From: an uncultured Ulvibacter sp.
Lineage (GTDB): Bacteria; Bacteroidota; Bacteroidia; Flavobacteriales; Flavobacteriaceae
DNA: 64,000 nt
Direction of reading: 5' to 3'
Assembly: GCA_913063405.1 (NCBI GenBank)
Contig: CAJXZB010000003.1
Coordinates: 1-64,000, forward strand
Shown here: positions 8,444 to 27,688 of the stretch, one piece after another
Position numbering within the stretch: position 1 is the first letter of the stretch
Layout: the number at the start of each line of letters is the position of its first letter
Notes under the pieces: model-generated
What the model was told of the DNA's origin: nothing
The model's input: the letters and a program-made list of their open reading frames with translations, nothing else
The model's database searches: none
Made by a program: the position numbers and the translations under genes

Positions 8444-11400
8444 ATGAACAAACCTACTATTAAAAGATACCCCACGCTTCTTATAGTCTTACTTTTCGGT
8501 ATACAGTCCTTTGCCCAAAATTTTGTCCCATTTACACCTAGATTCGACCAAGATCTTAAAGGTGATATCGTTCTGATAGGAAATAACATTTTGGGTCCCA
8601 ATAATTACCCTTACAATAACAATACAACCTACAATCACAATGTAGATATGCAGTATATTGATATTGATGGGGACCCTTCAACCTTTAGTTCATCAAGCGC
8701 AGATTTAGTAATACCAAACCCAAACTGTTATATAATACAGCATGCTAGTTTGTATTGGGGAGCAGTGACCAAAGGCACTCAACCCTTTACCAATGTAAGG
8801 TTTAAGGGGCCAACTGGAGCATATAATGATATTACAGGAACAGTAATCTTTGACGCAAACGGAACTTCTGTTGACGGTGGCGATAGTTTTCCCTATGCTT
8901 GTTATGCAGATGTTACTTCCATTGTAACAAATTTAACAAACAATTTAGGAACGTATACGCTCGCGAATGTTTCGAGTGCTTTGGGAGAAACAGGTACTTT
9001 TAATCCATACAACGGAACAGGATATTCTTCAGGGTGGTCTCTTTTTGTGGTGTATGAAGACCCTACGCTTCCAGGAAAGTCCATCACTAGTTTTGATGGT
9101 TTTAGCGCCATTAGTGTTGCTGGAAATAATCCAAACTTAGATATTCCTGTTTCTGGTTTCAGAACAGTCCCGGCACCCGCACCTGTAAGAGCAAACTTTG
9201 CTTTTGCTACGTTAGAAGGAGATAAACCAATAACTGGTGATCGCTTAAAATTGAATGGAACTACACTTTCAGCAGTGGATAGACCAGCTAATAATTTCTT
9301 CAACAGTGCCGTAACTCAGATTAGTGCATTACCTGTTGATAATAGAAACCCTAATAGTACTAATACTCTTGGGTTTGACACGGGACTGATGAGTGTACCA
9401 AATCCAGGAAACACTGTGATTGCGAATGATGCTACTTCAGCTACTGTTAGATTGGAGACTAGCGGGGACACCTTTTTTCAATACTTTCTTGCCTTTGCCG
9501 TAGAAATAATTGAACCAAATATTGTACTCACCAAAATTGTTGAAGATGAGTTTGGGAATAACATTGGGGGTCAAACAGTGACCCTTGGGCAGGAATTAAA
9601 CTATGTGATAGGTTTTCAAAATACTGGAAACGATAATGCAACCAATTTTACCATAAGAGATATATTACCTATCAATATAATTTTCGACTACCCTACAGAT
9701 TTAGTGCTACCAACAGGGGTAACTGTATCTAGCTATGATCCTGCCACGCGAGAATTAATATTTGCTATTGAAAACTATCTGGTTGAAGAAAATGACCCAG
9801 TCTACGAAATTCGCATTGAGATCCAAGTTGTAGACACCTGTCAACAATTGGCCGAAGCATGTTCAGACCTTATTAATAACCAAGCATTTGCCACCTATCA
9901 AGGAACTCTTAACCCTACTTTTATTATTACGGATGATCCTAGCCACAGTTCAAATACAGGATGTCTTATTTCACCTCAAGCGACTAATTTTTTAGCTGAT
10001 CTTGATGACTGCGTGTTTACGCAAAATGAGATTCTTTGTGGTGAAAGTCTGGAATTGACAGCTGCAGATGGGTACGACTCTTACTCTTGGTCCACAAGTA
10101 TAACCGGAACTCCGGTTATAGGTACAACTCAAACGATAACCGTTACACAAACAGGAATTTATTATTCATTTAACACAGCGCTTGCCCCATGTAGGTCTAT
10201 TGTTCAAGAATATGATGTAACACTGTATGGCGGTAACATTACAAACCCTGTAATTCCATTTGCAGATGAGGTTGTGACCTGTCCTAATGACGGTAAGTTA
10301 TTACCAAATATATATTTATGCGGTGAAGACGACTTTAGAGAAGTAACAACGGATGTAGCGAGCGCAGTAACAATTATCTGGGAAAAGTTGAATGAATCTA
10401 GCTGTCCGCCTGTATCGAATACCGATTGCGCAAACGAAAACAACTCTTGTACTTGGGATCAAGTAGGTACTGGTGCCGACTATACTGCTAATACAGCGGG
10501 TCAATTTAGATTAACCATTAATTATGATGGTGGATGTTTCAACCAATTTTATTTTAATGTCTATCAAAACCTACTAGAACCTACAGTTACAGCAACTGAT
10601 ATTATTTGTACGACACCAGGAAGTATTACTGTAGGTAATGTGCCAAGCGGTTATGAGTATAGCCTTGATGGTGTTAACTATCAAAGCAGTAATTTCTTTC
10701 AAGTTACCACACCTGGATTGTATACCGTTTATGTACAGCAAGTTGGTGTTCCAGCAAATGCTTGTGTATTTACGGTTCCTGATGTTTTGATTAGAGCACG
10801 GGATTTTACTGTTTCAACTATCATTAATCAACCTCTTTGTAATGGGGATTTGGGTAGTATTTATTTAGCAGCTAATGATGCAGAACCTCAATATTTCTTT
10901 TCTCTTTACTTAGGTGGGGTTTTAGTCAATAGTGTAGGTCCTATTGTTGAAAACAATTATGCTTTTGAGAGCTTAAACCCAGGGACATATACGGCTATTG
11001 TAGAAACTGAGGATGGATGTACACATACAGAAACTATTACAATTATAGACCCTCCTTTATTAACAGTTACGGCAGCAATAACAATACCGTTAACTTGTAC
11101 TAATGGGGAGATTACAGTGTATCCACTAGGCGGTACAGCCCCATACTTTTATTTTGTAAATAGTACTACCGTTTTTCAAACCGTTCCTGAGATTGTAGTT
11201 ACAACCGCTGGTGTTTATAACATAACGGTTGTTGATTCTAATAACTGCAGCGCAGAAACTACCATTACAATTGAGGCAACGCTAGCACCAGAGTTCACTA
11301 TAGAGGTCACTGATATTCTATGCGCTAGCGCCGACACTGGAACGATAAATATTAATGTAACCAACCCCAATGGTAATAGTCTTCGGTATAGCATTGACGG

Positions 11401-14400
11401 AGGGTTAACATTTACTAACTCATCATTATTTACCGGGCTTGCCTCTGGTAATTACGATGTTGTGGTAGAATACACAATTGGTCCATCTGTATGTATCACA
11501 GACCCAGAAACCATTTCAATTAACGCAAATACAGCTATCTCTGGTATTGCCGAATTGATCGCGCCACATACCTGTATTTCTAATGGTTCTATTACGGTAA
11601 CGAATGTCATGGGAGGTACTCCTCCATATATGTACAGTATTGATGGTATTACGTTTCAATCAACCCCTACCTTTACTGACTTGACAGCTGGGACTTACAC
11701 TATTACTATAATGGATGCCAATGATTGTACCTTCATTACCAATGAAATTACAATCCCACCATTAGATCCACCCACAGATTTAATGTTCAGCAACTCTCCT
11801 CTAACGTGTCCATCAAATACGGTTACGATAACAATTACAGGAACCACGGGAGGAATAGCTCCTTTAGAATATCGGATTATTGCTCCCAGCACAGCCGTTA
11901 CTTCATATCAAAGTTCAAATATATTTGCGGACTTAGCTCCAGACTTATATACGTTTCGGGTTAGGGATGCCAATGATTGCATATACGACGAGTCATATCT
12001 CGTTGAGCCATTACCTACCATAGCTATTTTTAGCGAAACTTTGAATGATGTTAGCTGCGTTGGTGGAGCTGATGGTGCTGTTCAATTTGTGGTTTCAGGA
12101 ACTACATCTTTTGAATATAGTATCAATGGAAATACTCCAATAACAGGAACATCACCTATTATTTTAACCGGGCTTCCTGCTGGTAGTTATACGATAGTAG
12201 TGACCGATCTCACAACAAATTGTGAGGCCACAGATACCGCCCTAGTAGAGGAGCCAACAAACCCTTTGACAATTTCAATCGCAACATCACCTATTACTTG
12301 TATTGCTAGTGGTAATGCGATAATTGTAGCCTCAGGTGGATGGGGTGGATATACATATACACTTACACTTCCCGATGCGACAGTGTTAACTCCACAATCA
12401 ACGAACACCTTTTTAAATTTAACGCAAGCTGGAGTCTATTCAATTTCGGTAGAGGATGCCAATGGATGTATTGTTACTGACACATTCAGTTTAACTATTC
12501 CTAATCCGCCTACTGCGATTATTAGTACAACATCTGATATATGCTATGACACAAATGACAATGCAACAATTGAGGTGGAAGTAACTTCTGGCGAGGCACC
12601 ATTCGAGTTCAGTCTTAACGGAGGCCCGTTTGTATCCACCAATATATTTTCAAATTTAACTCCTGGTAGTTATACTATAACGGTTAGAGATGCATTTGGT
12701 TGCGAAACGACATTGCCTGCAATAATCATTGCACCACAATTACTAGTAGATGCCGTTTTAACCGAAGGTTTAGATTGTACTTCTTCTCCAGATGCACTTA
12801 TAACAGGAAACATTACAGGAGGTACAGCACCCTATACTAACGCAGTATCTGTAGACGGATCTCCGTTCACTCCTTTAGGAGCAACAAGTACGCCCTTCAA
12901 CTATACGACCGGAACCGCTGGTACGTATCAGTTTCAAATAACAGATGGTATCGGATGCACTGCCACCTCACCAATTATTACGGTTAATCCAATTTCTCTT
13001 CCTGTGATAGATGTTATTACGCAAACCCAACCTATATTGTGTAATGGAGATTTAAATGGAGCTATTGATATTACTATCGACCCTACTTCGGGGACACCTC
13101 CATTTCAAATTAATGTTTATAACGATACTACAGGTACAGACTACGGTACTCAAACTTCTGGATTGCCCGCTGGCACATATACCATAACTGTTACAGATGT
13201 TAATTCTTGTGTCGGCACAGACACTATTACCATAGTAGAACCAGACCCTATTGTAGTGGTTTACCATACGATCGATATAACCTGTGGACCCGGAGGTATT
13301 TCAAAAGGCTCTATCATAATTGATAGTGTTGTGGGAGGAACAGCTCCTTACAATTATTTCGTATGGAGTTCTAACGGATACTTTAATTCTGAGTTAAATG
13401 CAACTGGATCAACTTCGGTTAGTTTTGATATAGTTGATTTTGGGTTATATGAAATCAATATAGTCGATTCAAATGGATGTTCCGTTCTCTTTCAAGATGT
13501 GCTTGTTGCTTCTCCCCCAGACGATTTAGATATTGCTATTACAAGCACGGTAGACTGTACTTTAGGTGGCGAGGCAGTTGTGACCGTGAGTTCTATATTA
13601 GGAAGCACAGGGCCTTTTCACTTTGCTATTTATCAGGGTCCAGGTACTGTGTATCCATTACCTCCAGGAGCCTGGTTACCTGAAAATCCGCCAACTAGTC
13701 AATCTACTATTTTTACTGGCTTAACGCCAGGTGTTTCCTATACATTTATTGTATATGATGAATCTACCCTGTGTAGTTACTATGAACCCGCGTCCTTACC
13801 AATACCAACAAATTCATCCTTAACTACTACGGCCGTTAGTTCAGATAATATTACCTGTACTGGTAGTGCAGATGGCAATGTGTCTTTCACGGTAAATAGC
13901 GTATATGCTACGCCGGTAAACGTGAACTATGAAATCTTTGACTCCCTTTCTTTAATAACAACAGGGATTGCAGGAAATGGTATTGTACCAGCTGGTGGTT
14001 CATTGAATGTTCCAGATTTAGGCCCCTTACCTTTCGGTACCTATTTTGTTTTAGTTGAAGAAACTACAGGGCCTAATGCAGGTTGTGGTGTTGTAACAGC
14101 TCCTTTTTCTATTACAGAATCTGCCATTTTATTAAGTTTAACTACTACTATTGACCAGAATGCCAATTGCAATCCAAATTCCGGAGTAATTAGTGCCATA
14201 GCGCAAAATGGAACAGCTCCTTATTTATACCAATTAACAATCACCCCTGGAGTACCGTCTCCTACTGATCCATCTTGGAGTACAACCAGTGTTTTTAATG
14301 TAGATGCGGGGAATTATTATGTACATGCTTTAGATGCTTATGACTGTATTGTGACAAGCCCCGTACAAGTGGTTGGTACGGATCCTATTCCACAAATTGC

Positions 14401-17400
14401 AGCTGTAACAGCTAATCAATGTTCTACTCCTGAAGGACAATTCGAGATAGATGTTATTTTATCGGCATCAGGAATACCTCCATATAGTTTTAGTATTGAT
14501 GGTGGTGCTTTTCAAACCCAATCTACCCCTTTTACAATTTCAAATTTATCTTCAGGAACCCATACTGTAGAAGTGAATGATGCCAATGGATGTGGAAATC
14601 TAGTAACAGTTATTATTGAACCGCCAATAGGATTAACTCCTGCTGTCACAGCCTTACCAAGTTGTGATGATGATGATGGCGAAATAACAGTAACGGCGAA
14701 TGGAGGTACTGGCAACTATGCATATACCATTAGTCCAAATCCAACTTCAATAGTATTGACAGGAAACGTATTTTCGGGTGTACCGTCTGGGACCTATACA
14801 GTGACCGTTACCGATACAGTAACATTATGCCTTGAAAACGTTTCAGTTACCTTAGATAGTGCCACACCGGTTACTTTCAATACTGAAGTAACAAATGTAA
14901 GTTGCCAAGGTGGAACTGACAGCCAAATTATAATTAATTTACTTCCTAGCAATGACAACCCAATATATACTTATGAAATTGTCGCACCTATTATAGTATT
15001 ACCTCAAACCGGAAATATTTTTACTGGATTGCCCGCAGCAACTTATACAGTGCAGGTTACTTCGGGAAGAGGTTGTATTGCCACGGCAAATGTGACAATT
15101 AATGAACCATCACTATTAGAAGTGACAGGGAGTGCAACCCCTTTTGCTTGTACACCAGATAATACAACGTCTACATCTACAATAACAATTACTGAACTTG
15201 GAGGCACTGCCACTTACATTTATAGCATTGATGGGACTAACTATTTTAATACAAATGTGTTTGAAGTTCTTGATACAGGTGTTATTCAAATTATTACAGT
15301 TTATGTTAAAGATGCGAATAGTTGTATCGCAACAAATACTGTGACTATAGATCCATTACCAACTATTACTGCGGTTGCGGTAACTATCGTTACACCTATT
15401 GACTGCAACCAAACAGGATCTGTATCTATAAATGTTACCGGTGGTTCAGGTAATTTCGAGTACCAACTGTTACCAGATGGTCTTCCCCAAGCTTCAAATA
15501 TTTTTGATATACCAGGGCCTGGCACTTATTATTACCAAGTAAATGACTTGGACACCGATTGCTATTTTTTAACAGATCCTTTTATAGTTCCACCTTTTGA
15601 TGAAATTGATGCAATATTGACTGCAATAGAAGTAAACGATTGTTTTGGTGATACCAATGGCGAATTAGCATTAACTATTACCGAGTATAGTGGCGAATAT
15701 ACATACCAACTATTGGATGGAATTGGTACACCCATTGGAAGTCCAGTGATTGCTAATACATCAACAAATCCTCAGTTAATTACTGGATTGGCTTCTGGTA
15801 ATTATGCAGTGACTATCGTAGAAACCGAAACACCTTTTTGTACTACAACTTCTAATGTTGTAACCATTGGTTCACCTCCAACACCATTAACATTAGATGT
15901 TGCTGAAACATCGAACGTAACCTGTAACAACAACATAGGTGTAATAACAGCAATAGCCAATGGAGGAACGAGTCCTTATGAATATGAATTAACAGGCGAT
16001 GCTACTGTTTCTTATTCATCCAATAATATGTTTACAGACCTAAGTGCAGGAACCTATACTGTAAATACCAGAGATGCTAACGGATGCATTGAGACAGATA
16101 CTATCACACTAATGGAACCTGAACCTATTAATGCAGATTTTGTTCCTAGCACAACATTGTTGTCATGCTTTAACGATCAAGATGCGTCAATAAGTGTTCT
16201 TAATGTAACGGGCGGACAAGTGGGAAATTATATCTACACGCTTAACACTATTTCGCCAGTGCCGTCAAGCTCGGGACCTCAGTCTTCAAATATATTTGAA
16301 GAATTAGGTGCTGGTATATATTCGGTAACTATTACAGATGGGTTTGACTGTATCTTTACTTCATTACCGGTTACAATTAACCAACCAGATCCTATCATTT
16401 CAAGTTTAGTTGCTAACACAACACCAACTTGTTTAACAGATGCGGAACTTACGCTTAGTGCCGCAGGTGGAACAGGTACTTACGAGTATAGTGAAACTGT
16501 AGATTTCACCTCAGTGTTAGGTACATTTACAACTTCGATTACATTTCCTGTTTCTCCAGGTGTCTATAATTACTATGTAAGGGACGCCAATGAATGTATT
16601 GCTAATGTCTCTAACGAGATCACTATAGACCCACTTCCTACTCTTCAGGTAAATTTAGTTTCTACCAATCCAGAAATAAACTGTTCAGGTGATAACACTG
16701 GAGTTATTGAAGCAACTGCTATCGGTGGCCTTGGTGATTATGTATATATTTTACAAGATTTATTAGGGAACACAATACCTGCTGACCAAAACACTCCGGG
16801 AACATTCATAGGCCTAACAATAGGTAGTTATGTAGTTTATGTTGAAAGCGGTGATTGTTTAAATACTTCAGAAGAAATAACCATTACAGAACCTGATACT
16901 GCTTTAGACACAACATTTGAGGTTACTGATGTTCTTTGTAACGGTGAAAACAACGGTAGATTAGAAATCCTTGCAAATGGAGGGTCAGGTATTATTAAAT
17001 ATGCCATTTCGCCTCAATTGGATCAGTTTTTTGAAACCAATGTATTCGAAAATCTTGCGCCTGGAGCTTATGATGCAATAGTGCAAGATCAGTTAGGGTG
17101 TTTTGTAACGTTCAATTTTGAAATTTTGGAACCGCTTCCAGTTTTAATTACCATTGTTGCAGATTCGACTATTCCAGAAATTTGCGAAGGAGATCAAGAT
17201 GGCTTTTTTAGCATTGATATTGAAGGTGGAACTCTTCCCTATAGTGTAAGTCTAGATGATTATGATGGGGATTATTTTACAGGAGAACTAGACCAAACTA
17301 TATTTGATTTTAACGACTTAAACGGTGGTGATCATATTGTCTACATTCGTGATAGTCTAGGATGTGAGTCTGAATGGAATATTACTTTTCCTGAATCCGT

Positions 17401-18121
17401 TTTCATAGACCCAAGTATTGATTTAGAAGTCCAATGTATCGATAATGTAACTACTAATGTGGTTACCGTTAGCGTAGATGAGAACCTTGTGGACATTTCG
17501 CAACTGCAATATTCTTTAAATGAAGATGACTTCCAAAGCAGTAATGTATTTACAAACTTGCCTCCAAGCACGGACAACTATATCACAGTAAGGCATGTCA
17601 ATGGCTGTGTTAAAACAACAGAATTCTTTGATATTGAAACATTCGCTCCAGTAGAATTATCATTGGAAGAAGGAGAGCTAAATGAAATTGTGGCCAATGC
17701 AATTGGTGGTACAGAAGACTATATTTTTACAATGAATGGTGTCGATTATGGTACTGAAAATACATTTACAATCACAGCGTCTGGAACCTTTGAAGTTACC
17801 GCAACCGATAGCAATGGTTGTATGGCAATTGTGGTAATTACTAAAGATTTCATTGACCTCTGTATCCCCAATTATTTTACACCTAACGGTGATGGTGCAA
17901 ATGACGGGTGGACTATAGGATGTGCACCTAATTACCCAAATCTTATGTTCTCGATATATGACCGCTATGGTCGTAAAGTTGTAACCTTACGTGCAGGGCA
18001 AAAATGGAATGGAACCTACAATAATGCCCAACTCCCTACTGGAGATTATTGGTATGTCGTAGAAACCGACGTAGAAGGCAATAAACGAGACTTTGTAGGT
18101 CATTTTACACTATATAGATAG
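8444..18121 (+). CDS. giant SprB-like gliding/adhesin protein, T9SS type B, 3225 aa
   Basis: A signal peptide ends QSFAQ (residue 25). Residues to about 350 form a conserved N-terminal region containing HASLYWGAVTKG. A DUF11-like module (IVLTKIVEDEFGN...) spans roughly 360-470. From about 530 to 3100 the protein is tandem SprB-type repeats of about 75-90 residues, each with a Cys near the start, GGTxPYxYSIDG in the middle and LxxGxYTxxVxDxNGC at the end. The last ~90 residues are the CHU_C type B sorting domain (NYFTPNGDGANDGW...). SprB of Flavobacterium is the cell-surface adhesin moved by the gliding motor. A gliding or attachment role is inferred. An SprF gene follows 40 bp downstream. Confidence 0.9.
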   Translation: MNKPTIKRYPTLLIVLLFGIQSFAQNFVPFTPRFDQDLKGDIVLIGNNILGPNNYPYNNNTTYNHNVDMQYIDIDGDPSTFSSSSADLVIPNPNCYIIQHASLYWGAVTKGTQPFTNVRFKGPTGAYNDITGTVIFDANGTSVDGGDSFPYACYADVTSIVTNLTNNLGTYTLANVSSALGETGTFNPYNGTGYSSGWSLFVVYEDPTLPGKSITSFDGFSAISVAGNNPNLDIPVSGFRTVPAPAPVRANFAFATLEGDKPITGDRLKLNGTTLSAVDRPANNFFNSAVTQISALPVDNRNPNSTNTLGFDTGLMSVPNPGNTVIANDATSATVRLETSGDTFFQYFLAFAVEIIEPNIVLTKIVEDEFGNNIGGQTVTLGQELNYVIGFQNTGNDNATNFTIRDILPINIIFDYPTDLVLPTGVTVSSYDPATRELIFAIENYLVEENDPVYEIRIEIQVVDTCQQLAEACSDLINNQAFATYQGTLNPTFIITDDPSHSSNTGCLISPQATNFLADLDDCVFTQNEILCGESLELTAADGYDSYSWSTSITGTPVIGTTQTITVTQTGIYYSFNTALAPCRSIVQEYDVTLYGGNITNPVIPFADEVVTCPNDGKLLPNIYLCGEDDFREVTTDVASAVTIIWEKLNESSCPPVSNTDCANENNSCTWDQVGTGADYTANTAGQFRLTINYDGGCFNQFYFNVYQNLLEPTVTATDIICTTPGSITVGNVPSGYEYSLDGVNYQSSNFFQVTTPGLYTVYVQQVGVPANACVFTVPDVLIRARDFTVSTIINQPLCNGDLGSIYLAANDAEPQYFFSLYLGGVLVNSVGPIVENNYAFESLNPGTYTAIVETEDGCTHTETITIIDPPLLTVTAAITIPLTCTNGEITVYPLGGTAPYFYFVNSTTVFQTVPEIVVTTAGVYNITVVDSNNCSAETTITIEATLAPEFTIEVTDILCASADTGTININVTNPNGNSLRYSIDGGLTFTNSSLFTGLASGNYDVVVEYTIGPSVCITDPETISINANTAISGIAELIAPHTCISNGSITVTNVMGGTPPYMYSIDGITFQSTPTFTDLTAGTYTITIMDANDCTFITNEITIPPLDPPTDLMFSNSPLTCPSNTVTITITGTTGGIAPLEYRIIAPSTAVTSYQSSNIFADLAPDLYTFRVRDANDCIYDESYLVEPLPTIAIFSETLNDVSCVGGADGAVQFVVSGTTSFEYSINGNTPITGTSPIILTGLPAGSYTIVVTDLTTNCEATDTALVEEPTNPLTISIATSPITCIASGNAIIVASGGWGGYTYTLTLPDATVLTPQSTNTFLNLTQAGVYSISVEDANGCIVTDTFSLTIPNPPTAIISTTSDICYDTNDNATIEVEVTSGEAPFEFSLNGGPFVSTNIFSNLTPGSYTITVRDAFGCETTLPAIIIAPQLLVDAVLTEGLDCTSSPDALITGNITGGTAPYTNAVSVDGSPFTPLGATSTPFNYTTGTAGTYQFQITDGIGCTATSPIITVNPISLPVIDVITQTQPILCNGDLNGAIDITIDPTSGTPPFQINVYNDTTGTDYGTQTSGLPAGTYTITVTDVNSCVGTDTITIVEPDPIVVVYHTIDITCGPGGISKGSIIIDSVVGGTAPYNYFVWSSNGYFNSELNATGSTSVSFDIVDFGLYEINIVDSNGCSVLFQDVLVASPPDDLDIAITSTVDCTLGGEAVVTVSSILGSTGPFHFAIYQGPGTVYPLPPGAWLPENPPTSQSTIFTGLTPGVSYTFIVYDESTLCSYYEPASLPIPTNSSLTTTAVSSDNITCTGSADGNVSFTVNSVYATPVNVNYEIFDSLSLITTGIAGNGIVPAGGSLNVPDLGPLPFGTYFVLVEETTGPNAGCGVVTAPFSITESAILLSLTTTIDQNANCNPNSGVISAIAQNGTAPYLYQLTITPGVPSPTDPSWSTTSVFNVDAGNYYVHALDAYDCIVTSPVQVVGTDPIPQIAAVTANQCSTPEGQFEIDVILSASGIPPYSFSIDGGAFQTQSTPFTISNLSSGTHTVEVNDANGCGNLVTVIIEPPIGLTPAVTALPSCDDDDGEITVTANGGTGNYAYTISPNPTSIVLTGNVFSGVPSGTYTVTVTDTVTLCLENVSVTLDSATPVTFNTEVTNVSCQGGTDSQIIINLLPSNDNPIYTYEIVAPIIVLPQTGNIFTGLPAATYTVQVTSGRGCIATANVTINEPSLLEVTGSATPFACTPDNTTSTSTITITELGGTATYIYSIDGTNYFNTNVFEVLDTGVIQIITVYVKDANSCIATNTVTIDPLPTITAVAVTIVTPIDCNQTGSVSINVTGGSGNFEYQLLPDGLPQASNIFDIPGPGTYYYQVNDLDTDCYFLTDPFIVPPFDEIDAILTAIEVNDCFGDTNGELALTITEYSGEYTYQLLDGIGTPIGSPVIANTSTNPQLITGLASGNYAVTIVETETPFCTTTSNVVTIGSPPTPLTLDVAETSNVTCNNNIGVITAIANGGTSPYEYELTGDATVSYSSNNMFTDLSAGTYTVNTRDANGCIETDTITLMEPEPINADFVPSTTLLSCFNDQDASISVLNVTGGQVGNYIYTLNTISPVPSSSGPQSSNIFEELGAGIYSVTITDGFDCIFTSLPVTINQPDPIISSLVANTTPTCLTDAELTLSAAGGTGTYEYSETVDFTSVLGTFTTSITFPVSPGVYNYYVRDANECIANVSNEITIDPLPTLQVNLVSTNPEINCSGDNTGVIEATAIGGLGDYVYILQDLLGNTIPADQNTPGTFIGLTIGSYVVYVESGDCLNTSEEITITEPDTALDTTFEVTDVLCNGENNGRLEILANGGSGIIKYAISPQLDQFFETNVFENLAPGAYDAIVQDQLGCFVTFNFEILEPLPVLITIVADSTIPEICEGDQDGFFSIDIEGGTLPYSVSLDDYDGDYFTGELDQTIFDFNDLNGGDHIVYIRDSLGCESEWNITFPESVFIDPSIDLEVQCIDNVTTNVVTVSVDENLVDISQLQYSLNEDDFQSSNVFTNLPPSTDNYITVRHVNGCVKTTEFFDIETFAPVELSLEEGELNEIVANAIGGTEDYIFTMNGVDYGTENTFTITASGTFEVTATDSNGCMAIVVITKDFIDLCIPNYFTPNGDGANDGWTIGCAPNYPNLMFSIYDRYGRKVVTLRAGQKWNGTYNNAQLPTGDYWYVVETDVEGNKRDFVGHFTLYR

Positions 18122-18161: not shown

Positions 18162-19148
18162 ATGAAAAATATACTAAAATACCTGCTCCTAATAATTGTA
18201 ATCCAAAGCCACGGTCAAGAACTTAACTTACCTGTTTTTACTCAGTATTTAGCGGATAATGATTTTGTAGTGTCTCCAACTTTTGCAGGAATTGGCGATA
18301 ATTTTAGAGTCAGGGTCAATGGGCTAACACAATGGGTTGGGATTAAAAATGCGCCGCAAAATATGGCATTGTATGCAGACATTAGGTTGGGAAATCGTTC
18401 TGGTGCTGGAATATCTGCCTATAGTGATAGAAACGGGAATACACGCCAACAAGGAGTAAAATTTTCTTTCGCCCATCACCTTATATTAGATTATAAGACA
18501 AAGCAATACTTATCTTTTGGATTGTCATATAACATCAATAGCTTCAGGATTGCTATTGAAAATTTCGAAACTACCTATGAAAATCCTACTATAGACCCCT
18601 ATGTTACAGATGATCGTGCCATTATAAATAATAACTTCGATGTAGGTGCGCTTTATAGATTTAGAAGTTTTTGGTTAAGCGCTAATGCAAATAATATTCT
18701 ATCAAAAGATATAGATTCCTTTGATGAAATAGAACCAAAATCCCTTCTTAATCTCCAATTTTATTCTGGTTATGTGATTAAAAGTTCTAACAACTCTGAT
18801 TATGAACCCTCCGCTTATATTCAGGTATTTACTAATGATGGAAGATCCAGTACCGATTTAAATTTTAAGTATAGAAAATACAATGGAAATGATGATTTCT
18901 ACTGGATAGGAGCCTCCTATCGTTTTTTGAATGACCAGATCATGGTACCTTTAAATGTTGGTCCTATGGCGGGTTTTAAAAAATCAGTATTCTATGTTGC
19001 CTACGCATATCAATTAACACTTAACGACTTAACAGGCTATAATTCTGGCACTCATGCAATTACCCTTGGTGTTGATTTATTCCAATCATTGAGTGATTGT
19101 GAATGCACAAAGGGAAAATATGACCCGGGTGACAAACTGTGGCAATAA
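18162..19148 (+). CDS. PorP/SprF-family T9SS membrane protein, 328 aa
   Basis: Short signal peptide (to about residue 19), then the PorP/SprF signature LPVFTQYLADNDFVVSPTFAG and a barrel of alternating strands to the end, with no extra domains. The length is normal for SprF. It lies 40 bp after the giant adhesin and precedes a strong terminator, so the two form an adhesin/SprF pair in which SprF probably assists export or anchoring of the adhesin in the outer membrane. A Cys pair near the end (DCECTKG) is unremarked in the family as far as I know. Confidence 0.88.
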   Translation: MKNILKYLLLIIVIQSHGQELNLPVFTQYLADNDFVVSPTFAGIGDNFRVRVNGLTQWVGIKNAPQNMALYADIRLGNRSGAGISAYSDRNGNTRQQGVKFSFAHHLILDYKTKQYLSFGLSYNINSFRIAIENFETTYENPTIDPYVTDDRAIINNNFDVGALYRFRSFWLSANANNILSKDIDSFDEIEPKSLLNLQFYSGYVIKSSNNSDYEPSAYIQVFTNDGRSSTDLNFKYRKYNGNDDFYWIGASYRFLNDQIMVPLNVGPMAGFKKSVFYVAYAYQLTLNDLTGYNSGTHAITLGVDLFQSLSDCECTKGKYDPGDKLWQ

Positions 19149-25569: not shown

Positions 25570-26759
25570 AATCCTTTTACGTTTTGATATATCTTACTTT
25601 GATTGCCATAGATTTTGATAAACCCTTTGGCTTCATCTGCCGTCCATCCTTTATTTTCTTCACCATAGCTCCCAAATTTGGCATTCATTAAATCATATTT
25701 TGAATGAATGCCATCCAAAGTAAAGTGATGAGGTTTCAATGTCACAAATACATCTCCTGAGACTTGTTTTTGGCTGCTCGTTAAAAACGCTTCAAGATCT
25801 CTCATCACAGGGTCTAAATACAGACCTTCATGTAAATGCGTTCCATACCAATTCGCCATATAATCTTTGTGCTGCAATTGCCACTTTGTAAGTGTATGTT
25901 TTTCTAATAAATGGTGTGCCTTAATAATAATTGTAGCAGCAGCAGCTTCAAAACCTACCCTACCTTTAATACCTACAATAGTATCCCCAACATGGATATC
26001 TCGGCCAATTGCAAAAGCGGATGCCAAATCATTTAAGATCATAATATTTTTATAAGCTTCATTTTGGGTATTATTAATAGCGACGAGATCTCCTTCTTCA
26101 AAAGTCAGTTTCACTTTTTCTTTGCCGTCTTTTGTTAGCTGTGACGGATATGCGCTTTCTGGCAATGATTTTTCAGAAGTTAACGTTTCTTCACCTCCAA
26201 CACTCGTCCCCCAAAGTCCTTTGTTGATTGAATATTTCGCCTTCTGCCAAGACATATCCACTCCATTTTTTATCAAGAAATCAATCTCCGCTTGTCTTGA
26301 TAATCTCTGGTCTCTAATTGGAGTAATAATTTTGATTTCGGGCGCTAATGTTTGGAAAATTAAATCGAACCTTACTTGATCATTTCCAGCACCCGTACTG
26401 CCGTGAGCTATATATTTTGCATCGATACTTTTTGCATATTCAATGATTTCAATAGCTTGAATAATTCGCTCTGCACTTACCGACAAAGGATATGTATTAT
26501 TTTTCAAAACATTACCATAAATCAAATACTTTACAACTTCATTGTAATATCTTGGAATTGCATTACTGTTCTTATAGGTTTTCACACCCATTGTATATGC
26601 TTTTTCTTCAATAATGTTAATTTCTTCAGGTGTAAATCCTCCAGTATTTACGCTTACAGCATGTACTTCAAAACCTTTATCTTTTGATAAGTGTACGGCA
26701 CAATACGAAGTATCTAATCCGCCACTATAGGCTAGCACTAATTTTTTTGATTGACTCAT
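25566..26759 (-). CDS. argG: argininosuccinate synthase
   Basis: Joins citrulline and aspartate with ATP hydrolysis to form argininosuccinate. The PP-loop AYSGGLDTSY is at the N-terminus, and YIAHGSTGAGNDQVRF and the C-terminal TLKPHHFTLDGIHSKYDLM are typical. At 397 residues it is normal. It is the second gene of the operon and overlaps the upstream acetyltransferase gene by 4 bases, so translation is probably coupled. Confidence 0.95.
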   Translation of the reverse strand: MSQSKKLVLAYSGGLDTSYCAVHLSKDKGFEVHAVSVNTGGFTPEEINIIEEKAYTMGVKTYKNSNAIPRYYNEVVKYLIYGNVLKNNTYPLSVSAERIIQAIEIIEYAKSIDAKYIAHGSTGAGNDQVRFDLIFQTLAPEIKIITPIRDQRLSRQAEIDFLIKNGVDMSWQKAKYSINKGLWGTSVGGEETLTSEKSLPESAYPSQLTKDGKEKVKLTFEEGDLVAINNTQNEAYKNIMILNDLASAFAIGRDIHVGDTIVGIKGRVGFEAAAATIIIKAHHLLEKHTLTKWQLQHKDYMANWYGTHLHEGLYLDPVMRDLEAFLTSSQKQVSGDVFVTLKPHHFTLDGIHSKYDLMNAKFGSYGEENKGWTADEAKGFIKIYGNQSKIYQNVKGL

Positions 26760-27370
26760 TTTTTATTCTTTTTTAAAAACAGCGTTTGTTTTATATTTTT
26801 CAACCTTGTAAAGGTCTTTTCCTTAATTTCTTTCGGTTCTTTGGTTTCAGAATTTGGATCGTATAACATTCCTGTACAGAGGCACATACTTTGTTGGGTA
26901 CGTTGAAGCACATCATAGTTTTTACAGGTTTGACAGCCTTTCCAAAAAAACTGGTCTGTAGTAAGTTCTGAAAACGTAACTGGCTTATAGCCCAATTCAC
27001 TATTCATTTTCATAACAGCTAAACCTGTCGTAATTCCAAAGATTTTTGCTCTAGGGAATTTTTCGATAGAATGTTCGAAAATTCTTTCCTTAATCTGTTT
27101 GGCTAATCCTTGTTTTCTATAATTAGGATGCACGATTAATCCTGAATTCGCCACAAATTTTCCGTGACTCCAAGATTCTATATAACAGAAACCTGCGAAT
27201 GTTTTTCCGTCTAAAGCAATAACAGCATTGCCTATTTCCATTTTAGAAATAACGTATTCTGGTTCTCGTTTCGCAATACCAGTACCACGCACTTTGGCTG
27301 CTTCAGAAATTGTTTCGCAAATAATATTGGCGTACACTATATGTGATTTATCAGCAATAATGATTTTCAT
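26756..27370 (-). CDS. GNAT N-acyltransferase, candidate N-acylglutamate synthase, 204 aa
   Basis: A GCN5-related acyltransferase with the acyl-CoA pyrophosphate-binding motif RKQGLA (residues 85-90) preceded by the beta-strand NSGLIVHP. Unusually, a Cys cluster follows the GNAT core (Cys146, 149, 163, 165; pattern CxxC...CxC), which could bind zinc or iron-sulfur. It is the first gene of the arginine operon. Among the operon genes it is the only one that could make N-acyl-glutamate, the first step. That role is inferred from position. It replaces the usual ArgA or ArgJ, neither of which is seen here. Confidence 0.75.
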   Translation of the reverse strand: MKIIIADKSHIVYANIICETISEAAKVRGTGIAKREPEYVISKMEIGNAVIALDGKTFAGFCYIESWSHGKFVANSGLIVHPNYRKQGLAKQIKERIFEHSIEKFPRAKIFGITTGLAVMKMNSELGYKPVTFSELTTDQFFWKGCQTCKNYDVLQRTQQSMCLCTGMLYDPNSETKEPKEIKEKTFTRLKNIKQTLFLKKNKK

Positions 27371-27446: not shown

Positions 27447-27470
27447 AAATAAAAAGCACCCTTACGGGCG
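27447..27470 (-). terminator. candidate attenuator hairpin of the arginine operon leader
   Basis: On the minus strand CGCCC (27470-27466) pairs with GGGTG (27461-27457) around a GTAA (GNRA-type) tetraloop, with one G-U pair, followed by cttttt. The stem is only 5 bp, so it is modest. The sequence ACCCTT at 27561-27556 can pair with the AAGGGT that forms the 3' arm, giving an alternative structure. Confidence 0.45.
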
Positions 27471-27606
27471 ACGTGAGAAAAAGAGGCGTACAGAAATCTC
27501 GTTATTCGAAAGAACAACTATATTTTGAAACGTTGATATGAAGTTTAATTTGTACAAGGGTAAAAAAATAAAAATGACGTAACTAATTGAATGCTAAATT
27601 GAAGAA

Positions 27607-27675
27607 TTAGCGGCGGCGATTGCGCAAGGGCAATACGGGAAAAATAGTACGTATTTTATTTTTTAAGATTTTCAT
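27607..27675 (-). CDS. arginine-rich leader peptide, 22 aa
   Basis: ATG at 27675-27673, stop TAA at 27609-27607. The peptide is MKILKNKIRTIFPVLPLRNR followed by two more Arg. Arg occurs at positions 9, 18, 20, 21 and 22, and the last three codons before the stop are CGC CGC CGC, with another CGC two codons earlier. CGC should be an uncommon codon in this AT-rich sequence. The frame begins 5 bp after a -7-like box and ends 236 bp before the first arginine gene, with a terminator-like hairpin between. It fits a ribosome-stalling attenuator. No ribosome-binding site is evident, so translation would be near-leaderless. Confidence 0.6.
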   Translation of the reverse strand: MKILKNKIRTIFPVLPLRNRRR

Positions 27676-27680
27676 CTATG

Positions 27681-27688
27681 CGAATATA
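27681..27688 (-). promoter_or_regulatory. -7-like box of the arginine operon leader
   Basis: TATATTCG on the minus strand differs from TAnnTTTG at one base. It lies just upstream of the leader ATG, which would leave almost no 5' untranslated region. No TTG -33 element is obvious. Confidence 0.35.

Follow-up and report, generated by a model that had tools for sequence, protein, structure and literature searches.

Arginine-ending leader frames and a covarying pair of hairpins upstream of the arginine operon in Flavobacteriaceae

The arginine operon of an uncultured Ulvibacter sp. is preceded by two short reading frames that end in arginine codons and by two hairpins that recur upstream of the same operon in related Flavobacteriaceae. 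From comparison of these sequences, the operon is very likely under arginine-codon-dependent leader control. The most likely form of such control would be ribosome-mediated attenuation that dispenses with an intrinsic terminator, the leader sensing charged tRNA-Arg for CGC and CGT codons. Far more uncertainty attaches to the output step than to the codon-dependent control itself.

Results

The window (the whole stretch of DNA analysed, 64,000 nucleotides) carries the leader and its operon on the minus strand. The ATG of the first leader peptide, uORF1 (27675-27607), lies 5 nt past the end of a -7 promoter box (TATATTCG, 27688-27681). uORF1 was read from the window sequence as MKILKNKIRTIFPVLPLRNRRR, and its last codons are CGC AAT CGC CGC CGC TAA. 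A second leader peptide, uORF2 (LYKLNFISTFQNIVVLSNNEISVRLFFSRRP, 27557-27462), starts with TTG and was recognised by its open frame and by an excess of third-position differences. It ends in VRLFFSRRP, and its final CGT CGC CCG TAA runs into hairpin h1 (CGCCC-GUAA-GGGUG, 27470-27457); the 5' arm of h1 holds the Arg codon CGC and its GNRA loop holds the uORF2 stop TAA. The sequence CTTTTT lies directly 3' of h1. It is followed by hairpin h2 (GGAACU-UA-GG-UGAGU-CC-GGUUCU, 27444-27422), which is supported by covariation and has a bulged A and a conserved UGNGU loop. We also identified a hairpin inside uORF2, h0 (27501..27518), of variable sequence and conserved position, and a long-range stem, S, between uORF1 (27645..27664, around the codons for KNKIR) and a U-rich strand immediately 5' of the uORF2 start (27563..27585).

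The first gene of the operon encodes a GNAT acetyltransferase (26756..27370), and the operon extends to 19349. The eight same-strand genes 3' of the leader encode GNAT, argG, argC, argD, an N-acetylornithine-carbamoyltransferase-like protein, argB, an argE-like M20 hydrolase and argH; for the carbamoyltransferase, argG, argD and argE-like proteins the best NCBIfam scores fall under the model cut-offs. On its plus strand the window also carries a gene for a repetitive, secreted-looking protein of 3225 residues (8444-18121) and, after it at 18162-19148, one that we take to be PorP/SprF-like.

The original prediction, of an arginine-rich leader peptide and an attenuator-like hairpin, had named the uORF1 frame, the -7 box, h1 with its five T residues, the segment ACCCTT (27561-27556) as a partner for an h1 arm, and the eight arginine-pathway genes. 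All of these are present where it placed them. It had missed uORF2 with its stop in the h1 loop, the covarying h2, h0 and stem S.

To compare relatives, we searched 149 family genomes (148 genera) and found GNAT in 98. Upstream DNA was read for 90 of these, and 82 loci remained after removal of four without a recognised gene start and four with more than 3 mismatches in the h2 loop. This set was thus chosen on h2. Because h1 was found by a pattern starting CGC or CGT, the codon within h1 itself was left out as evidence.

In all 82 loci at least 22 codons of open uORF2 frame lead up to h1, while the two other frames there reach 20 codons in 22/82 and 19/82. Arginine accounts for 247 of the 738 codons in the nine positions before h1, compared with averages of 0.34 and 0.51 Arg per ten codons in the other frames. 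Codon choice is also skewed: 131 of the 247 are CGT and 98 are CGC (229 together, or 93%), with a single AGA. Among the 178 Arg codons of 13 genes in the window, AGA is the commonest (81), with 25 CGT and 13 CGC. The peptide ends Arg-Pro with its stop at the h1 loop in 71/82 loci and continues for a further 3-9 codons in the remaining 11, so Arg-Pro-stop is not universal. In two-leader genomes the start is TTG or GTG in 31/35. Over the last eight codons before h1, differences at the three codon positions numbered 540/514/806 in two-leader loci and 310/255/420 in the others. This third-position excess is confined to the last 8-12 codons of uORF2, and an ungapped comparison of the last 66 nt in two-leader loci gave equal differences by codon position (749/748/739).

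An Arg-rich short frame 5' of uORF2 was found in 39/82 loci, against 1.1 expected from Markov shuffles, so the leader peptide predicted from the window alone recurs among its relatives, although a few of the 39 frames (e.g. that of L054) look accidental. At the uORF1 ends, 136 of 154 Arg codons are CGC or CGT. The -7 box near the uORF1 start also recurs: where a start was recognised in a two-leader locus, a box scoring 5-6 of 6 was present in 34/34, its end 4-6 nt upstream of that start (L008, although listed, was dropped). Among 47 loci treated as single-leader, where the start was picked for the best box, that box scored 5-6 of 6 in 35, and in 20 of those it lies 7 nt before the uORF2 start; with one random start each as control, 5/81 positions scored at least 5. 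Since the box lies a few nucleotides before the leader start, translation of the leader probably begins very near the RNA 5' end, on a nearly leaderless transcript. These bacteria are described, in passages of a study of Flavobacterium psychrophilum, as lacking Shine-Dalgarno sequences (PMC9723704). Judged from these frames, many genera have uORF2 as the only conserved Arg-ending leader frame, without uORF1, and two loci (L026 and L035) keep uORF1 and have no match to h1 and h2.

In two-leader genomes, stem S joins early uORF1 codons to the U-rich strand that precedes the start of uORF2. Across 34 loci, cognate strands paired at -11.6 kcal/mol and non-cognate strands at -9.4 kcal/mol, and none of 5000 permutations was as strong. 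Stem S probably couples the accessibility of the uORF2 start to uORF1 translation. Within uORF2, ahead of the Arg codons, is hairpin h0, which relative to synonymous-codon shuffles folds with a mean z of -1.25, with 41/82 loci below -1 and none above 1. The shuffles and permutations used throughout leave the relatedness of the loci in place.

We built a covariance model of h1 plus h2 (R1) from 27 sequences, including that of the window, taken from these same loci. R1 matched 93/149 family genomes, and in 91 of the 93 the match lies on the GNAT strand, 38-241 nt upstream (median 47). The Arg-ending frame and the hairpins are conserved in related Flavobacteriaceae, the comparison by which the original prediction was to be judged. 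The remaining two matching genomes are G084 and, with a weak match, G028. In G084 we did not find GNAT; the element is kept upstream although the first gene encodes another protein, without a Pfam match, which is followed by argG. Counted by locus, R1 matched 86/90 fetched upstream regions, and a match was absent from 7/98 GNAT-bearing family genomes. It also matched all 80 loci examined in named genomes (the best 80 of 586 GNAT relatives), in each case shortly upstream of GNAT; these come from Gelidibacter, Winogradskyella, Polaribacter, Tenacibaculum, Maribacter, Zobellia, Dokdonia and other genera, with two labelled just Bacteroidetes bacterium. The argG signature SGGLDTS was found in 80/80 of these best relatives and in 30/30 family loci.

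Family genomes with an R1 match have one match each at E <= 0.01, save for a weak second match in G075. We rejected the extra weak matches in G028 and G075, where no arginine leader was seen. Of 196 genomes of the order, R1 matched 15: 13 family members and two outside the family (G296 and G154), whose weak matches we rejected as lying within long frames. We likewise rejected the idea that h1 and h2 are a device of many operons, as the four other copies of AGGTGNGTCC in the Ulvibacter genome all look coding.

Covariation was assessed in an alignment of 86 sequences (A4), fitted to the R1 structure and so favouring pair counts, in which 95.7% of cells are paired and 8 of 13 pairs show double-sided changes, including all six outer pairs of h2. 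None of 500 shuffles reached any of five measures, and sliding the partner strand abolished the signal. A search of the whole window against Rfam gave no match at the curated threshold, and the leader alone gave far sub-threshold matches only. The operator hairpin of phage MS2 has a bulged A and two G-C pairs under a four-base loop. Hairpin h2 resembles it in the bulged A and the two G-C pairs; loop size and context differ, and we treat this as a resemblance only.

The h2 loop is AGGTGNGTCC in 76/82 loci (selected with at most 3 mismatches there) and is the most conserved part of an element whose stems covary freely. Together with the single occurrence of the motif before a gene in its own genome, this would suit an arginine-sensing RNA that serves mainly to bind a protein or a small molecule and in which the Arg codons are secondary. 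We consider this unlikely, as the element has a small size for an aptamer, conservation extends throughout to the Arg codons and the open frame, and we have no candidate protein. A compact, conserved and structured 5' region could also give a stable short transcript, which would make control of the operon incidental to a trans-acting small RNA; the position of the element before the same gene in nearly every matching genome, with Arg codons, makes this extremely unlikely.

We then asked whether the leader ends in a conserved terminator, as classical attenuation of the his/trp type would require: h1 or h2 would be an intrinsic terminator, and ribosome stalling would favour a mutually exclusive antiterminator. 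The run of T residues after h1 in the window, h1-type hairpins followed by T6-T7 in L089, L085 and L023, and the his operons of relatives, which work by this route, all speak for it. However, a T-tail (at least 6 T in 8 nt) was uncommon, following h1 in 9/82 loci and h2 in 1/82. Hairpins with a T-tail at dG <= -8 occurred in 18/82 arg leaders, versus 10/82 when each was shuffled once. At dG <= -10 the count was 10/82 between the Arg codons and the gene, or 15/82 over the whole leader. The predicted pairing of ACCCTT with the h1 arm was found in 1/35 loci and is thus peculiar to the source genome, and we found no conserved alternative pairing that would exclude h1 or h2. By comparison, His-rich leader peptides (e.g. 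MAFIQLHHHHFHICSQANRK) precede hisG in 14/14 loci read (L200-L213, the source genome being L207), and all 14 have a strong hairpin with a T-tail (dG <= -13.3). These came from 21 genomes examined, of which 14 have hisG; some are members of the order from outside Flavobacteriaceae. As the his stretch (320 nt) is longer than the arg stretch, the whole-leader 15/82 is the fairer figure. No clear Ile/Val/Leu leader was found directly before ilvD in the relatives examined.

On these counts we rejected h1 with its T5 as a conserved intrinsic terminator. Of the attenuator proposed originally, the arginine leader and its closeness to a promoter stand, and the conserved terminator and the ACCCTT pairing do not. 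Terminators are scarce in arg leaders, and therefore arginine control here does not, as a rule, rest on an intrinsic terminator; classical attenuation is very unlikely here.

The spacing of the element bears on a further alternative, in which leader ribosomes and hairpins govern access to the GNAT start, with polarity following in the operon, compare toiL-topAI and rbfL-rbf. Hairpin h2 ends 41-58 nt before GNAT in 74/82 loci (median 49.5), stem S precedes the uORF2 start, and a lineage outside the family (f36, below) has a similar stem before GNAT itself, all of which would fit translational control. Longer spacers are tolerated, though, at 84-98 nt in five of the 82 loci and at 164 and 241 nt between the model end and GNAT in G115 and G061, and no pairing with the gene start was noticed, albeit without a systematic search. 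We regard translational control as somewhat unlikely. Five loci (L009, L012, L014, L015 and L018) have small palindrome-like inserts, noted by eye, that make the h2-to-GNAT spacer longer; the element is kept in them.

Beyond the family, GNAT was found in 83/198 phylum genomes at E <= 1e-10, and upstream DNA was read for all but 13. Judging by their frames, arginine leaders of other kinds precede GNAT in other parts of the phylum. In lineage f36 (L247-L264, L270), 19/20 loci carry a different leader, typically MQxxLAHRIDxxPxRxIPRRR-stop and mostly ending RRIPRRR-stop or similar, in which 74 of 119 Arg codons are CGG; the twentieth locus (L267) has another Arg-rich frame. Early codons of the f36 leader pair with the strand before GNAT, and cognate strands beat swapped ones (1/5000 permutations). 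In one set of 40 phylum loci, 8 of them from f36 and 2 from genus g127, an Arg-rich short frame was present in 31, against 13.8 expected.

The stop codon of the Arg leader apparently falls within a small hairpin loop in f17 (L268) and in f22 (L274, L288, L289). In f22 this is AGGGTTTGACCCT-like, and a second hairpin comes after it whose loop is CUACG and whose stem letters have changed (all noted by eye). This suggests the same layout built with different hairpins. Genus g127 differs: its nine GNAT-bearing genomes had no R1 match, one of them (G127) being among the seven family non-matches, and seven of its loci had no Arg-rich frame; of two more, one (L290) has a frame that contains an Arg cluster. 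In g127 (L088, L239-L245) we noted by eye another short frame before GNAT, MNKISLHITSLSRTISPGTSPEVRMLSI in L088, which is not Arg-rich; similar DNA is present in several of the others.

Finally, we looked for the arginine repressor ArgR (PF01316). It was found in 0/149 family genomes, 124 of which are at least 90% complete, and the same search was positive in 9/14 control genomes, including a Bacteroides.

Discussion

The leader precedes an operon for arginine biosynthesis and has a short frame in which arginine itself is abundant. It also combines candidate stall codons in a leader frame with the absence of a conserved intrinsic terminator, as in Rho-dependent uORF attenuators of the orf34 and toiL type. 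Under ribosome-mediated attenuation, a ribosome supplied with plentiful arginine would complete uORF2 and depart, h1 and h2 would fold, and transcription would be aborted before GNAT. When arginine is scarce, a ribosome held on the CGY cluster would keep h1 open and RNA polymerase would continue. Termination would probably be factor-dependent, because no intrinsic terminator is conserved. If attenuation is indeed the mechanism, Rho is a plausible factor, a proposal we hold just short of probable; that termination needs a factor reading h2 is more doubtful.

The nearest known system is Salmonella orf34-speF, which, as passages of its description show, also has a short leader frame with consecutive Arg codons, no intrinsic terminator and a response to arginine, and in which it matters where the stop codon lies and that a hairpin closely follows it, as the layout here would suggest (PMC6386406). 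Its termination is described there as Rho-dependent. It differs in regulating ornithine decarboxylase through a DUF2618 peptide, while the element described here precedes a biosynthetic operon and often has tandem leaders, and those passages describe neither a GNRA-loop-stop hairpin like h1 nor h2 (PMC6386406). In E. coli toiL-topAI, the passages at hand describe a leader frame within a hairpin, stalling that refolds the RNA, and ensuing Rho termination, but the leader senses antibiotics and not arginine (PMC12121999). The peptide of Staphylococcus aureus rbfL-rbf senses arginine by specific Arg codons, there AGA and AGG; according to the passages available, it acts on a transcription factor gene by blocking its ribosome-binding site and lowers expression on arginine limitation, whereas expression of the arg operon should rise (PMC13009471).

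Closer in phylogeny, passages on F. psychrophilum state in general terms that leader peptide attenuation occurs at amino-acid operons; this is the same family and the same idea, and no arginine operon, peptide or hairpin is named there (PMC9723704). Long 5' UTRs of Bacteroides thetaiotaomicron, in the same phylum, hold short frames that resemble attenuating leaders, which in the passages concerned are not arginine-linked; arginine is nowhere mentioned in the main text of that study (PMC7366714). The carA leader of Pseudomonas aeruginosa is a peptide before an arginine-related operon, but its attenuation is ascribed, in the passages seen, to pyrimidines, with arginine acting transcriptionally (PMC4997734). 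Going by these passages, then, arginine-sensing leaders are already known in other phyla and amino-acid attenuation in flavobacteria has been stated generally; an arginine attenuator or such an RNA motif in Bacteroidota was not found in the open-licence literature, supplements excluded. The his leaders of relatives share the principle of a peptide rich in its own amino acid, and the strong terminator that they all have is mostly absent from the arg leader.

We tentatively suggest, as a possibility well short of probable, that h1 and h2 form a new class of regulatory RNA, in which a ribosome at or near the stop in the h1 loop would decide whether a putative dedicated factor or RNA polymerase reads h2. 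Such an element would replace both an intrinsic terminator and ArgR in Flavobacteriaceae, and may be one lineage's version of phylum-wide arginine leaders with lineage-specific hairpins.

There is an isoacceptor theory of leader codon choice, and the codon bias seen here (CGY and not AGA, with mainly CGG in f36) makes it testable. The leader provides both a covarying RNA element whose loop is conserved and a test case for attenuation without an intrinsic terminator. If true, leader control of this kind would explain how arginine synthesis is controlled in a large family in which ArgR was not found.
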